Shown piece by piece: positions 39,550 through 58,973 of a DNA stretch of 64,000 nucleotides. Origin of the DNA: Paraglaciecola sp. T6c. Lineage in GTDB: Bacteria > Pseudomonadota > Gammaproteobacteria > Enterobacterales > Alteromonadaceae. The translations under genes were made by a program, and so were the position numbers. Below the pieces are notes generated by a model. That model searched no databases and was not told where the DNA came from. It saw only the letters and a program-made list of their open reading frames with translations. Where the stretch lies: NCBI RefSeq assembly GCF_000014225.1, contig NC_008228.1, positions 2,418,001 through 2,482,000 on the forward strand, in the 5' to 3' direction. Numbering within the stretch: the first letter of the stretch is position 1; the number at the start of each line of letters is the position of its first letter.

Positions 39550-39560
39550 TATTTCGAATT
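39550..39560 (+). repeat. Left terminal inverted repeat of the island
   Basis: TATTTCGAATT, exact inverse of 58723-58733. The outer neighbour is the yfbR 3' fragment. A TTTGTCAC at 39566-39573 shares its core with the subterminal repeats. Confidence 0.85.
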
Positions 39561-39649
39561 GCATATTTGTCACTTGAGTAGGGGGGAGGGTGTGTTTCCA
39601 GCAAAATAAGACCTTTAGTTAATCTTGATTAGTTAATTATCTTAAATAA

Positions 39650-39724
39650 TGTAAACAGTGTCACGAATATGCCAGCTGTAAACAAATGTCACAGCAAGAA
39701 AGTGCTAGTGTAAACAAGTGTCAC
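39650..39724 (+). repeat. Three subterminal direct repeats, left island end
   Basis: TGTAAACAGTGTCAC (39650-39664), TGTAAACAAATGTCAC (39677-39692) and TGTAAACAAGTGTCAC (39709-39724) are near-identical copies 27 and 32 bp apart. A short direct repeat TTAGTTAAT (39615-39623, 39629-39637) lies outside them. GTGTAAAC also occurs at the right end. They are likely binding sites for a recombinase or accessory protein. Confidence 0.8.
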
Positions 39725-39835
39725 TTCTAATCCAGCTCGCGGAATTGGATGAGAGAGTCAATGCAAGCTGGCCTGAGTATGAACAGGATTTAAAAAAATA
39801 ACCATTACAGTCCCTTTGAGCCTACTATCAAACGA

Positions 39836-40087
39836 TCACCTATCAGATTCCGATCTGTTTTTAAGTTGTTTCAATCCATGTTTTGGATCCAAGCCTAACG
39901 CTTCGCAGTACTGCACATATTCATAAATAAAAAGTTTTCGCTGTCCCTTTTCTATTTTACTGACTGTTTGGAAAGGCTCGTCCAATAGTAAGCCTAACTC
40001 ACGCACAGTCATGCCCTTCTTAATACGCTCATTTTTAAGCCAAGAAAGCAATCGGGTGTAACTTTGGTCATTTGTGGACTTTTTCAT
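39836..40087 (-). CDS. XRE-family HTH regulator
   Basis: An 83-aa protein consisting of one Cro/CI-type helix-turn-helix (LKNERIKKGMTVRELGLLLDEPFQTVSKIEKGQRKL) with a short tail. It is likely an autoregulator of the island's left end; two inverted repeats just upstream (40105-40134) are candidate operators. No toxin gene is adjacent in an obvious pair. The gap between the yfbR remnant and this gene is filled by the element-end repeats. Confidence 0.85.
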   Translation of the reverse strand: MKKSTNDQSYTRLLSWLKNERIKKGMTVRELGLLLDEPFQTVSKIEKGQRKLFIYEYVQYCEALGLDPKHGLKQLKNRSESDR

Positions 40088-40104
40088 CTTGTCCCTATTA
40101 TGAC

Positions 40105-40134
40105 GACATGGTACGATGTCCCGAAATTAGGGAC
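40105..40134 (-). promoter_or_regulatory. Two inverted repeats upstream of XRE gene
   Basis: GACAT-GGTACG-ATGTC (40105-40120) overlaps GTCCC-GAAATTA-GGGAC (40118-40134); another GTCCC half lies at 40091. They lie 18-47 bp before the XRE start codon, where an operator would be expected. Confidence 0.5.
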
Positions 40135-40409
40135 GAGTGGATTGGAAATTTGAAGTATTGTGTCAGATTTTAGCTGGCCTATTTCAAAATGATAATGAGA
40201 TTAGAATTCGTATGCCTAGTGAATAGAAGAAGTTAGCTGCCCTATTTGAAATACTTGTCTATCAGCAAAATATGATAATGAATATCTAGAATTTACTTTA
40301 CCTTTAGAAGAGATTGGGGGACTTGGGAGTCTATTGACCGCGAGGGCACTAATACTATTGAGAAAAGACATTAAATTAGAATCTAAACTATAAACATGAG
40401 GTATTTTTC

Positions 40410-57400: not shown

Positions 57401-57518
57401 AGTGCAAAGACCGTTGGCAACGGTAGTGATTGGCGGGATCATCTCATCGACCATTCTAACATTGGTCGTTTTGCCTATTTTGTATCGGGTAATGCATTCG
57501 AAATCACACAAAGTGTGA
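54405..57518 (+). CDS. czcA: Heavy-metal RND transporter, CzcA-like
   Basis: A 1037-aa HME-RND pump. ATG 54405 follows a GGGAGG site; an in-frame TTG upstream is rejected. Two RND halves each have a helix cluster and large periplasmic loops. The TM4 proton-relay motif [20 protein letters not shown] has the Asp residues typical of CzcA. The C-terminal half has the matching [17 protein letters not shown]. It exports divalent ions (Co/Zn/Cd class) from the periplasm with CzcB and CzcC. Metal choice cannot be read with certainty. Confidence 0.94.
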   Translation: [1037 protein letters not shown]

Positions 57519-57524
57519 TTGTTA

Positions 57525-57552
57525 AGCACCGTATTTAAGAAGATACGGTGCT
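57525..57552 (+). terminator. Hairpin after czcA
   Basis: AGCACCGTAT-TTAAGAAG-ATACGGTGCT is a perfect 10-bp stem 6 bp after the czcA stop, with only CTTCGTCT behind it, so no clear U-tail; it may be a transcript-end stabiliser. Confidence 0.55.
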
Positions 57553-58050
57553 CTTCGTCTGGAAATTCAAAATAATTGAAAATGATTACTGGATAGTGTA
57601 TTCACCATTAAGGAACTGATTGTTCGGGCTGCTACAATTGCCACTAATTCAATCAAGGTCGAATAAAGATCAGCGAATGACAAAACATCTTCGGCAGGTT
57701 TAACGCTCGCCTGTCCGCTTAGGTCCACATCTGCCTTCCAGAGAACTTCTTCTCAACGGCTGCAATTGGCACATGGAAAAAATCCATTGCCACAAGCCTG
57801 ACCGTCTCCTGCTTGTCTTGAGCGGACTACTATCGAAGTTTCGCCAATGACCGCTTTTCGCTCATTTGAGACTGTCAGACTCTCAAAATAAACTCCAACT
57901 GCTAAGGTCGTTGCTACAAAGCCGCTCGGTAGTCAGACTGATAGTCTCCCTCGGTAATCACACTACTGCACTTAATGTTGTTAACACCTAATGTTCATTC
58001 TTTTGATGAATTATTAAAAATGACTATTAAATTTTAAAGTGCTAATAACT
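57553..58050. other. Non-coding stretch with decayed repeat-like DNA
   Basis: About 500 bp with no supportable gene. The part 57700-57960 contains words shared with 48906-48945 (AGCGGTC and TCTGACAGTC-type, inverted here) and a 22-codon minus-strand reading frame that I take to be part of the repeat, not a gene. Confidence 0.5.
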
Positions 58051-58644
58051 TTATGTAGAAAGCTTATCTAAAGTCAAAGTGCAACTATCCAAAAATATTT
58101 CAATGAAACATTTGACTTCGGGCATGTCTTCTTGAAGTTCTAAAAGCTTCTTATCCAATTTAACTTTTACGTGCTGGAATTCGTCATTATTGAAACGGAG
58201 TTCATTTTGAGTTTTCACATAAGCTTGGATGATATCTGCTGCTTTAACTATACTTTTGTATTCAGGATCTACTTTTGATTGAACAATTAAAGGCTCCATT
58301 TCACTTTGTAAATCTTCTGGGAGTGAGGCTAAACATTCCTTTTCTGCTAATTCTTCAAGTTTCTTATATGCTTTCGTAAATTCTGGATTATGGTATTTTG
58401 TATTAGAGTTCATGTCCTGTAGCTTTGTTTCCGATACCTCGTGGTATAAAGCTAAAGTAGCCGCTTTGTCTGGGTTCAAATTACCACCAAAACGTTTATT
58501 CTTGATGACAGTCAATAAATGAGCAATAACCGCTACTTGATGACAATGTTCAGAAACATTTTCTGATTGAAAGCAGTGCATTAACGCCCAACGTTCTAAC
58601 AATGGCATTCGCGTTATCCATGCCATAAATTTACTTTGATCCAT
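58051..58644 (-). CDS. Island-borne divergent YfbR-like HD 5'-deoxynucleotidase
   Basis: The 197-aa protein has full YfbR length and order: MDQSKFMAWITRMPLLERW, ENVSEHCHQVAVIAH (metal His), LYHEVSETKLQD (the HD motif reads His-Glu), then KAADIIQAY (metal Asp). Host YfbR and E. coli YfbR have HD at the second site; catalytic Glu and Asp equivalents (SE, QD) are kept. It would hydrolyse dNMPs if active. It starts 2 nt after the stop of the truncated host yfbR ORF, with an AGCAGG site, in the same orientation. It is clearly divergent from the host fragments, so it is not a recent duplication. Confidence 0.88.
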   Translation of the reverse strand: MDQSKFMAWITRMPLLERWALMHCFQSENVSEHCHQVAVIAHLLTVIKNKRFGGNLNPDKAATLALYHEVSETKLQDMNSNTKYHNPEFTKAYKKLEELAEKECLASLPEDLQSEMEPLIVQSKVDPEYKSIVKAADIIQAYVKTQNELRFNNDEFQHVKVKLDKKLLELQEDMPEVKCFIEIFLDSCTLTLDKLST

Positions 58645-58646
58645 AA

Positions 58647-58973
58647 TTAACCTGCTAACTTTGAGGGAGAGTGTAAACGAGTGTAAAAATTCGAAATAAC
58701 CTCAAAGTTTACACTTTTTAAGAATTCGAAATAATCGCCCGTAAGAACCTCCGATACATCGTGAAACATTGCTTGAGTGGCAATTTTGTATGGGTTAACA
58801 CTGCCATTAAAATACTTGTTGCGGATTAACGCTAACGAATGCGCCACCATGGCCACTTGTAAACTGTGTTCTTGCACATTTTCAGTACGTACGTTACGCA
58901 TCAACGGCCAGCGGTTAATGAGTTTCATGCGGGCTAAATGGGCGAAAAAATGGCTTTTTTGTGGGGTACTCAT
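58647..58973 (-). pseudogene. yfbR: yfbR 5' part, truncated by island insertion
   Basis: Residues from [22 protein letters not shown] to SEVLTGD are the N-terminal HD part of YfbR ([16 protein letters not shown]). After the Gly-Asp codons (58734-58739) the frame runs into the island end and encodes 28 foreign residues (from [12 protein letters not shown]) before TAA at 58647-58649. The rest of the gene is at 39170-39549. Its ATG overlaps the alaA stop, the usual alaA-yfbR operon. The truncated product lacks the C-terminal metal Asp and is presumably inactive. Confidence 0.95.
58658..58733. repeat. Right end of island: terminal and subterminal repeats
   Basis: AATTCGAAATA occurs twice, at 58688-58698 and at the boundary 58723-58733 (the terminal inverted repeat). 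AGTGTAAAC (58670-58678), AGTGTAAA (58680-58687) and the inverse GTTTACACT (58707-58715) echo the left-end TGTAAACA repeats. ACTTTGAGG (58658-58666) and CCTCAAAGT (58700-58708) form an outer inverted pair. Confidence 0.82.

Follow-up and report, generated by a model that had tools for sequence, protein, structure and literature searches.

The mobile elements closest to the one treated here, a 19,192 bp insertion (positions 39543-58734) in the native yfbR gene of Paraglaciecola sp. T6c, are islands and transposons described in earlier papers. The insertion lies in a 64,000-nucleotide stretch of contig NC_008228.1, called the window below. The tmk island of Pseudomonas putida KT2440 combines a split deoxynucleoside triphosphate (dNTP) gene with a functional replacement, the deoxynucleoside monophosphate kinase (dNMPK) PP_1964. 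This kinase is essential in P. putida, it is located beside four conserved genes (a TetR-like regulator, two tyrosine recombinases and one unknown gene), also in Psychrobacter, and the authors refer to the island as a 'first-case example' (PMC10653934). The Tn554-type transposon Tn552-II carries a target-gene-like gene (tgl) together with a 7-bp attachment site (att) from the donor, and its authors suggest rescue (PMC12486829). One host flank and one donor-derived tail after crossover have been described for the elements named SEs, for Tn554 and for Tn552-II (PMC10214605, PMC12486829). GInts have a ginABCD operon and direct imperfect repeats of 10-17 nt, and their insertions are intergenic or at a 3' or 5' gene end (PMC5385486).

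Like the KT2440 island, the window element splits a dNTP gene and carries a replacement, and Psychrobacter cases were found here as well. By description it is set apart by its target, yfbR, and by a replacement that is a homologous YfbR without the site, whereas the KT2440 replacement is an unrelated kinase. The dNMPK-type modules of Psychrobacter and Glaciecola presented below have, again by description, a KT2440-like composition and are homologous to the window module. With Tn552-II the element shares a target-gene-like copy, for which we use the same name tgl, and a 7-nt donor-derived sequence; Tn552-II differs in being staphylococcal, in its tnpABC genes and yolD-like target, and in a tgl that keeps an att copy (PMC12486829). 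An ordinary and a large tyrosine recombinase, a Tfp-like protein, inverted repeats (11 bp and perfect in the window) and a donor footprint (the 7-nt tail) are shared with SEs. Unlike SEs, the window has the order Tfp-IntB-HTH-IntA-like, where HTH denotes helix-turn-helix, and its HTH protein is unrelated to the Srap-like protein, the proteins compared being those of thyA-type elements with SE gene order. A four-gene recombinase operon and target specificity are also found in GInts, and the available GInt descriptions mention no target copy, which sets the window element apart from them by description (PMC5385486).

The locus is best explained, in our view with high probability, by site-specific transposons able to inhabit housekeeping genes because they bring a replacement along. 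Already known are tmk/dNMPK islands with four conserved genes (PMC10653934) and the tgl of Tn552-II (PMC12486829), and among the target and replacement cases considered here bench evidence exists for tmk/dNMPK only (PMC10653934). In the literature searched, which lies outside most subscription journals and all of bioRxiv, we did not meet elements that target yfbR and carry a copy of it, Tmk copies that are homologous but target-free, thyA/ThyA or dgt/Dgt elements, or a rule uniting them. The available text of PMC10214605 contains none of the words yfbR, thyA and thymidylate.

The insertion in yfbR and the copy it carries

The native yfbR gene lies on the minus strand in two pieces, both matching PF12917. 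The 5' piece (58735-58973) ends at the target site with ..SEVLTG and the first two bases of an Asp codon, and the 3' piece (39170-39542) continues with ..LPTPVKYY..; the open reading frame 58647-58973 covers profile positions 1-85 and the frame 39170-39604 covers positions 72-182. When 58735 and 39542 are joined on the minus strand, a YfbR of 203 aa is regained; it is 98.0% identical, gapless over 200 aa, to the intact YfbR of a genome from the same genus (locus L037 in genome G212; L and G numbers are our handles for loci and genomes) and 94.0-96.5% identical to four further YfbRs of the genus. Looking for intact yfbR in relatives had been proposed in a preliminary description of this DNA, made from the sequence alone. 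As the join contains no gap or extra codon, the element edges are 39543 and 58734, and the 7-nt tail GGTCGGA (39543-39549, minus strand) is foreign to the site. This donor-like tail is the coupling sequence that the preliminary description had assumed, with a length of 7 nt instead of 5 nt; the redundant Asp codon reported there arises from the earlier join only.

An 11-bp terminal inverted repeat is found on the yfbR-3' side at 39550-39560 (TATTTCGAATT, plus strand) and on the yfbR-5' side at 58723-58733 (AATTCGAAATA, minus strand), the two being perfect reverse complements. This 11-mer by itself is not rare: the genome has 9 exact copies, 6 in forward and 3 in reverse orientation, compared with 4 and 0, respectively, of a reversed control pattern. 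It is the placement at both edges that counts. A second, inner copy (58688-58698, minus strand) sits 35 bp inside the right end, and is perhaps an extra recombinase site or a trace of an earlier nested event. The G+C content is 39.8% in the element and 43.1% in the remaining window. ARAGORN found no tRNA in the window, and inspection by eye of the two yfbR junctions gave no direct repeat of the GInt kind (10-17 nt). An island that splits yfbR between 11-bp terminal inverted repeats and is not flanked by a tRNA, as first described, is thereby borne out. That reading of a site-specific island is supported as to target, repeats and a donor-like tail; it overlooked the replacement yfbR and the relation to elements in tmk, thyA and dgt.

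The replacement, tgl (58051-58644, minus strand), is a full-length 5'-deoxynucleotidase homologue and the last gene inside the right end. It scores 207 bits with PF12917 and 266 bits with NCBIfam PRK03826 (cut-off 122). PF12917 has one other match in this genome, at a far lower score (42 bits, E 2.1e-10) that still exceeds the family cut-off. The broken yfbR frame reads into element DNA, and the ATG of tgl follows 2 nt past its stop codon. The tgl protein is 40% identical to native YfbR. At the target region its sequence, HEVSETKLQDMNSNTKYH, differs from the native one, and in the 12 nt just before the break only 2 match. The copies in four other yfbR elements match the target in 6/12, 4/12, 3/12 and 3/12 of these last nucleotides; upstream, the matching fraction in this set of five is 0.57-0.60. 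Aligned to E. coli YfbR (2paq), whose active-site residues we take to have the roles assigned to them, tgl keeps most active-site positions and is of the HE type, with HE in place of HD.

A tree of 58 YfbR rows, built after exclusion of one row without the HD/HE motif pattern (L139, G129), consists of two deep sets, canonical HD (19 rows) and HE (39 rows), each supported at 100/100. The tgl protein groups (8 rows, 100/98) with the copy of a Photobacterium element and with genes of G284, G129, G121, G164 and G183, far from the canonical natives. This bears on an ancestral in-situ duplication, in which an unrelated island would have landed in one of two yfbR paralogues. HE-type YfbR is common among other members of the family, as such a history would allow, but the copy sits inside the element ends and its closest group includes an element-borne gene, so that we give this explanation very little credence.

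Related elements in yfbR and tmk

The recombinase module of the window element consists of four overlapping or adjacent minus-strand genes encoding proteins of 612, 650, 377 and 417 aa. TR612 (46506-48344) is Tfp-like and tyrosine-recombinase-like with an incomplete catalytic set; it matches the SE-order Tfp profile (E 3e-10), has no Pfam match, and retains Arg, His and Tyr but neither the first Arg nor the HxxR His. TR650 (44554-46506) is a large tyrosine recombinase (PF00589, 1.7e-12; SE-order IntB profile, E 2.9e-9) which shows the Arg, His-x-x-Arg, His, Tyr set. Both residue sets were read by eye from alignments of four members, and are presumably the catalytic ones. HTH377 (43443-44576) is an auxiliary protein with a helix-turn-helix (PF00165, 4.5e-7), and did not match the Srap-like protein of thyA-type SE-order elements (hhalign probability 4.6). 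TR417 (42187-43440) is an ordinary-size tyrosine recombinase, conserved in the family, whose PF00589 match (3.8e-4) is under the curated cut-off and whose match to the SE-order IntA profile (E 5.2e-8) could be explained by general recombinase likeness. An AlphaFold model of TR612 had a mean predicted local distance difference test score of 47.8 and was not used.

Searching 295 genomes of the same family with TR612/TR650 gave 11 genomes with any match and 4 with a strong one, the window included. Matches were also obtained in 9 named contigs, two of which are loci already found among these genomes. A search of 296 Vibrionaceae genomes with the TR612 profile gave 10 genomes with any match and 5 strong ones, including the already known G761 (L085). 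In total we obtained 15 distinct strong modules, some of them cut by contig ends; one match of the family search, L023 (G073), was left out of the flank inspection. A class-wide search of 369 genomes, a thin sample across families, returned the window and four weak matches only, and viral contigs scanned with one pattern gave no confirmed relative.

A piece of the target gene at the edge together with a replacement was found in 14 of the 15 strong modules. Both target pieces are seen in nine of them: the window, L085, Rheinheimera, a Glaciecola metagenome-assembled genome (MAG), Psychrobacter glacincola, P. immobilis, Psychrobacter Pi2-1, G058 and Pseudoalteromonas denitrificans. The fifteenth, from Thalassotalea ND16A (L092, L126), is on a 4.8-kb contig without ends, too short to judge; this module is of the LID type, 96-97% identical to the Glaciecola one.

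The target is yfbR in five modules, namely the window, Photobacterium sanguinicancri (L085, with the 3' piece on a separate contig) and G805, G984 and G966, for which only the 5' piece was looked at. In each of the five, yfbR is broken at SEV(L/I)TGD, and next to its 5' piece lies an HE-type copy read in the same direction. The Gly-Asp preference suggested in the preliminary description is supported by the four elements other than that of the window. In the four Vibrionaceae elements the module comes directly after the copy or after one small gene.

Six modules interrupt tmk at the LID: the Glaciecola MAG, MAG L093, P. glacincola, P. immobilis, Psychrobacter Pi2-1 and Rheinheimera soli. The dNMPK is the first gene of the module operon in the first four and lies beside the tmk 3' half in Psychrobacter Pi2-1; Rheinheimera soli has a full Tmk behind the tmk 5' piece. 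The Glaciecola MAG kinase matches PF21448 (1.1e-28), and those of MAG L093, P. glacincola, P. immobilis and Psychrobacter Pi2-1 were assigned by 68-96% identity to it. A tmk search in ten genomes (excluding L093) found two halves and no intact canonical tmk in the four dNMPK-element genomes, one of which gave an additional weaker match to positions 1-172 (E 2.8e-12). Three further modules interrupt tmk at the P-loop (G058, Pseudoalteromonas denitrificans and G1025), each with a full Tmk that has a different LID placed between the 5' stub and the module. The remainder of tmk is at the far end in G058 and P. denitrificans, and in G1025 only the 5' stub was looked at.

The elements also have similar ends. 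For 7 elements we analysed the terminal 300 bp on either side (14 ends); the 3'-side edge of the Photobacterium element is approximate and one end has masked bases. The motif TGTAAAC, in either orientation, occurs 32 times, where 1.15 copies are expected and none of 300 shuffles gave more than 6; 30 of the 32 copies face inward. The first copy starts 19-25 bp from the edge in 10 of the 14 ends, at 100 bp at the yfbR-3' end of the window element and at 176 bp on the Photobacterium 3' side; the 5' end of the Photobacterium element and the C-side end of the Rheinheimera one lack the motif. The ends tie the yfbR and tmk elements into one family.

The pairing has to be weighed against a chance capture, in which the yfbR copy was picked up from a host as cargo and matches the broken gene by coincidence. 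The varied other cargo of the elements, judged by inspection, and some distant relatives without a pair fit this view. The pairing in 14 strong modules, with the fifteenth not judgeable, and in 7 of 7 SE-order thyA elements described below does not, and neither does the frequent position of the copy next to the recombinase operon, which is seen in many elements but not in the window or Rheinheimera. More unbiased sampling preserved the pairing: all nine new Vibrionaceae matches to the TR612 profile, found out of sample, carry a copy of the gene whose piece is at the edge. We therefore consider chance capture very improbable.

In the window element, a small HTH_3 regulator identified by Pfam (39836-40087, minus strand) and an HD/SpoT-like hydrolase domain protein (40967-41800, minus strand; PF13328, 3e-14) are found near the left end, the latter being cargo and matching just the first part of the RelA/SpoT family model. 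The stretch between the module and the right end is occupied by metal-efflux-type genes (49200-57518, plus strand), comprising cation diffusion facilitator-like transporters, a DUF3703 protein and a CzcCBA-like resistance-nodulation-division pump; DUF3703 was assigned by Pfam and the others by inspection. Within this cargo the translation of 49200-49595 (minus strand) resembles a MerR regulator.

Elements in thyA and dgt

Among the weak matches, all seven elements with SE gene order are located beside a thyA piece and carry ThyA. Both thyA pieces were seen in G067 and G012, and the 5' piece in G962, G1042, G954, G999 and G778. The break comes after the motif LRPCMHTHT in G012 and after QRSCDVPL in the other six. 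The carried ThyA of G067 and G012 is distant, with 27-31% identity in the aligned pieces, and that of the five Vibrionaceae elements is 81.5-83.7% identical. SE-order loci with a thymidylate synthase gene adjoining the fourth gene comprise these seven (L147, L149, L186-L190) and two on Pseudomonas plasmids (L170, L171). Of the latter, a P. putida plasmid has the complete order with thymidylate synthase after the fourth gene, and a P. asiatica plasmid has a remnant of it with thymidylate synthase.

Six Alteromonadaceae genomes (L052, L051, L154-L157, L211-L214) have a dgt gene interrupted at the HD motif. The 5' piece ends with HDIGHP(P/R)(F/Y), and 3' halves were found in five of the six, resuming at FGHGGE in the three that were read (G066, G226, G305). 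Four of the genomes (G226, G041, G066, G281) carry a distant Dgt of about 500 aa, which was not found in G284 and G305; G235 has a distant Dgt without a dgt piece. The four genomes inspected at the dgt 3' half (G066, G226, G284, G305) all have a recombinase operon there with a GInt-like layout (about 424, 775, 895 and 173 aa), directly followed by Dgt in G066 and G226. The four operon proteins of G066 have no Pfam match, and the class appears GInt-like from size, order and motifs in the 424-aa protein. All six genomes have a mobile HE-type YfbR beside the dgt 5' piece.

The nucleotide enzymes might instead serve the element, by providing dNTPs for a replicating circular intermediate or through dNTP depletion directed against phages, with host rescue being secondary. 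In line with such a function, the four recognised targets are all dNTP genes, the dgt elements carry YfbR too, and among PHROGs tgl has a match named dATP triphosphohydrolase. This idea does not predict, however, the agreement between the enzyme that an element carries and the gene that it has broken; the extra YfbR of the dgt elements and the two dgt elements without Dgt are exceptions to this agreement. A PADLOC scan of six window proteins gave a match for HTH377 alone, and a weak one. We regard service to the element as the principal function as unlikely.

Taken together, break and replacement may be the strategy of a whole guild of transposons, moved by tyrosine-recombinase modules of at least two, and probably three, types, a generalisation we hold to be more likely than not. 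Its members would break and rescue dNTP enzymes at active-site codons (the YfbR GD loop, the Tmk LID and P-loop, the ThyA active site and the Dgt HD motif) with a replacement that is often part of the recombinase operon and often lacks the target. They would make the host dependent, and on decay leave a foreign enzyme in the locus.

Proposed mechanism and consequences

We propose that the four-gene module (TR612-TR650-HTH-TR417) moves the island. The recombinase complex would bring a circular element, formed by copy-out, to a short target inside conserved active-site coding sequence, and the crossover would leave one host flank and one donor-derived tail. This part is supported by the matches of TR650, TR612 and TR417 to SE-order IntB, Tfp and IntA, the fourth protein being unrelated. 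In the window, entry would have taken place at the active-site loop codons SEVLTGD|LPTP, and the same event would deliver a complete, diverged YfbR without the target sequence, in sense just behind the broken 5' piece. There tgl could be read from the alaA-yfbR promoter, and its translation could follow the broken frame (stop, 2 nt, ATG), yielding an active enzyme. The host would retain the enzyme and the element a landing site conserved among hosts. A replacement without the target could not be hit again at that site, and a host that deleted the element would be left without the enzyme, an addiction effect.

Several observations weigh against this explanation. Both target pieces are visible in no more than 9 of the 14 paired modules, a single piece being seen in L093, G1025, G805, G984 and G966, and the five Vibrionaceae thyA elements likewise show the 5' piece only. 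At the target, the ThyA copies of the latter have unchanged amino acids and agree in 13-18 of the last 21 nt, so they are not specially recoded. Module and replacement are on different contigs in Rheinheimera and Psychrobacter Pi2-1, and the Thalassotalea ND16A genome has an intact tmk in addition to its module contig. The tgl protein has HE where canonical YfbR has HD, and its activity and expression, like the mobility of the element, are inferred by us. Because yfbR is dispensable in E. coli, addiction would be weaker than for tmk or thyA. Five of the seven inspected weak matches (L146, L148, L150, L151, L152) have no recognised pair, and the prediction failed for a Pseudomonas plasmid module, where the neighbouring gene stays intact.

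The failed case concerns plasmid pPUV-7 (L118), on which a relative of the window module follows a gene of the phosphoadenosine phosphosulfate (PAPS) reductase family. That gene was considered as the broken target and rejected. This gene matches 2271 plasmid records, 101 of them at 99% identity or more, and TR650 matches only 10; in most relatives among the matches listed only the last 12 residues differ. The gene, part of the backbone of Pseudomonas megaplasmids, would thus be intact, with the pPUV-7 module apparently located at its 3' end. This module and the five unpaired distant ones lead us to conclude that break-and-replace is not a property of every such recombinase.

What may remain after decay is suggested by five genomes from three genera, in which a tgl-type yfbR directly adjoins alaA: G284, of the same genus as the window, and G129, G121, G164 and G183 (L119-L122, L050). 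No other YfbR is present in G121, G164 and G183, and G284 and G129 have another one elsewhere. The remaining rows of the window genus at their yfbR, and G305 from the genus of G129, are of the canonical type; canonical yfbR adjoins alaA in G305, and in G226 its neighbour is not alaA. This distribution would fit displacement of the native gene in place. One TGTAAAC-type motif each was found in two of the five loci, and no separate canonical yfbR remnant was found beside the tgl-type genes in any of them. Differential loss of an old HE type is a possible alternative, because no clear element scar was found at these loci.

Synthetic cleave-and-rescue gene drives break an essential gene and carry a recoded rescue, using engineered nucleases in sexual eukaryotes. 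The likeness is an analogy only, in which the elements would be a bacterial counterpart. The present findings suggest a way for an element to find safe harbour in a housekeeping gene. With these elements a described oddity, tmk/dNMPK in Pseudomonas and relatives, becomes a testable rule that spans four genes and several target sites in several gammaproteobacterial families. The rule would offer a concrete mechanism for the replacement of core genes in situ by distant versions, and may account for cases in which tmk, thyA or yfbR is annotated as broken although the genome is healthy in other respects.

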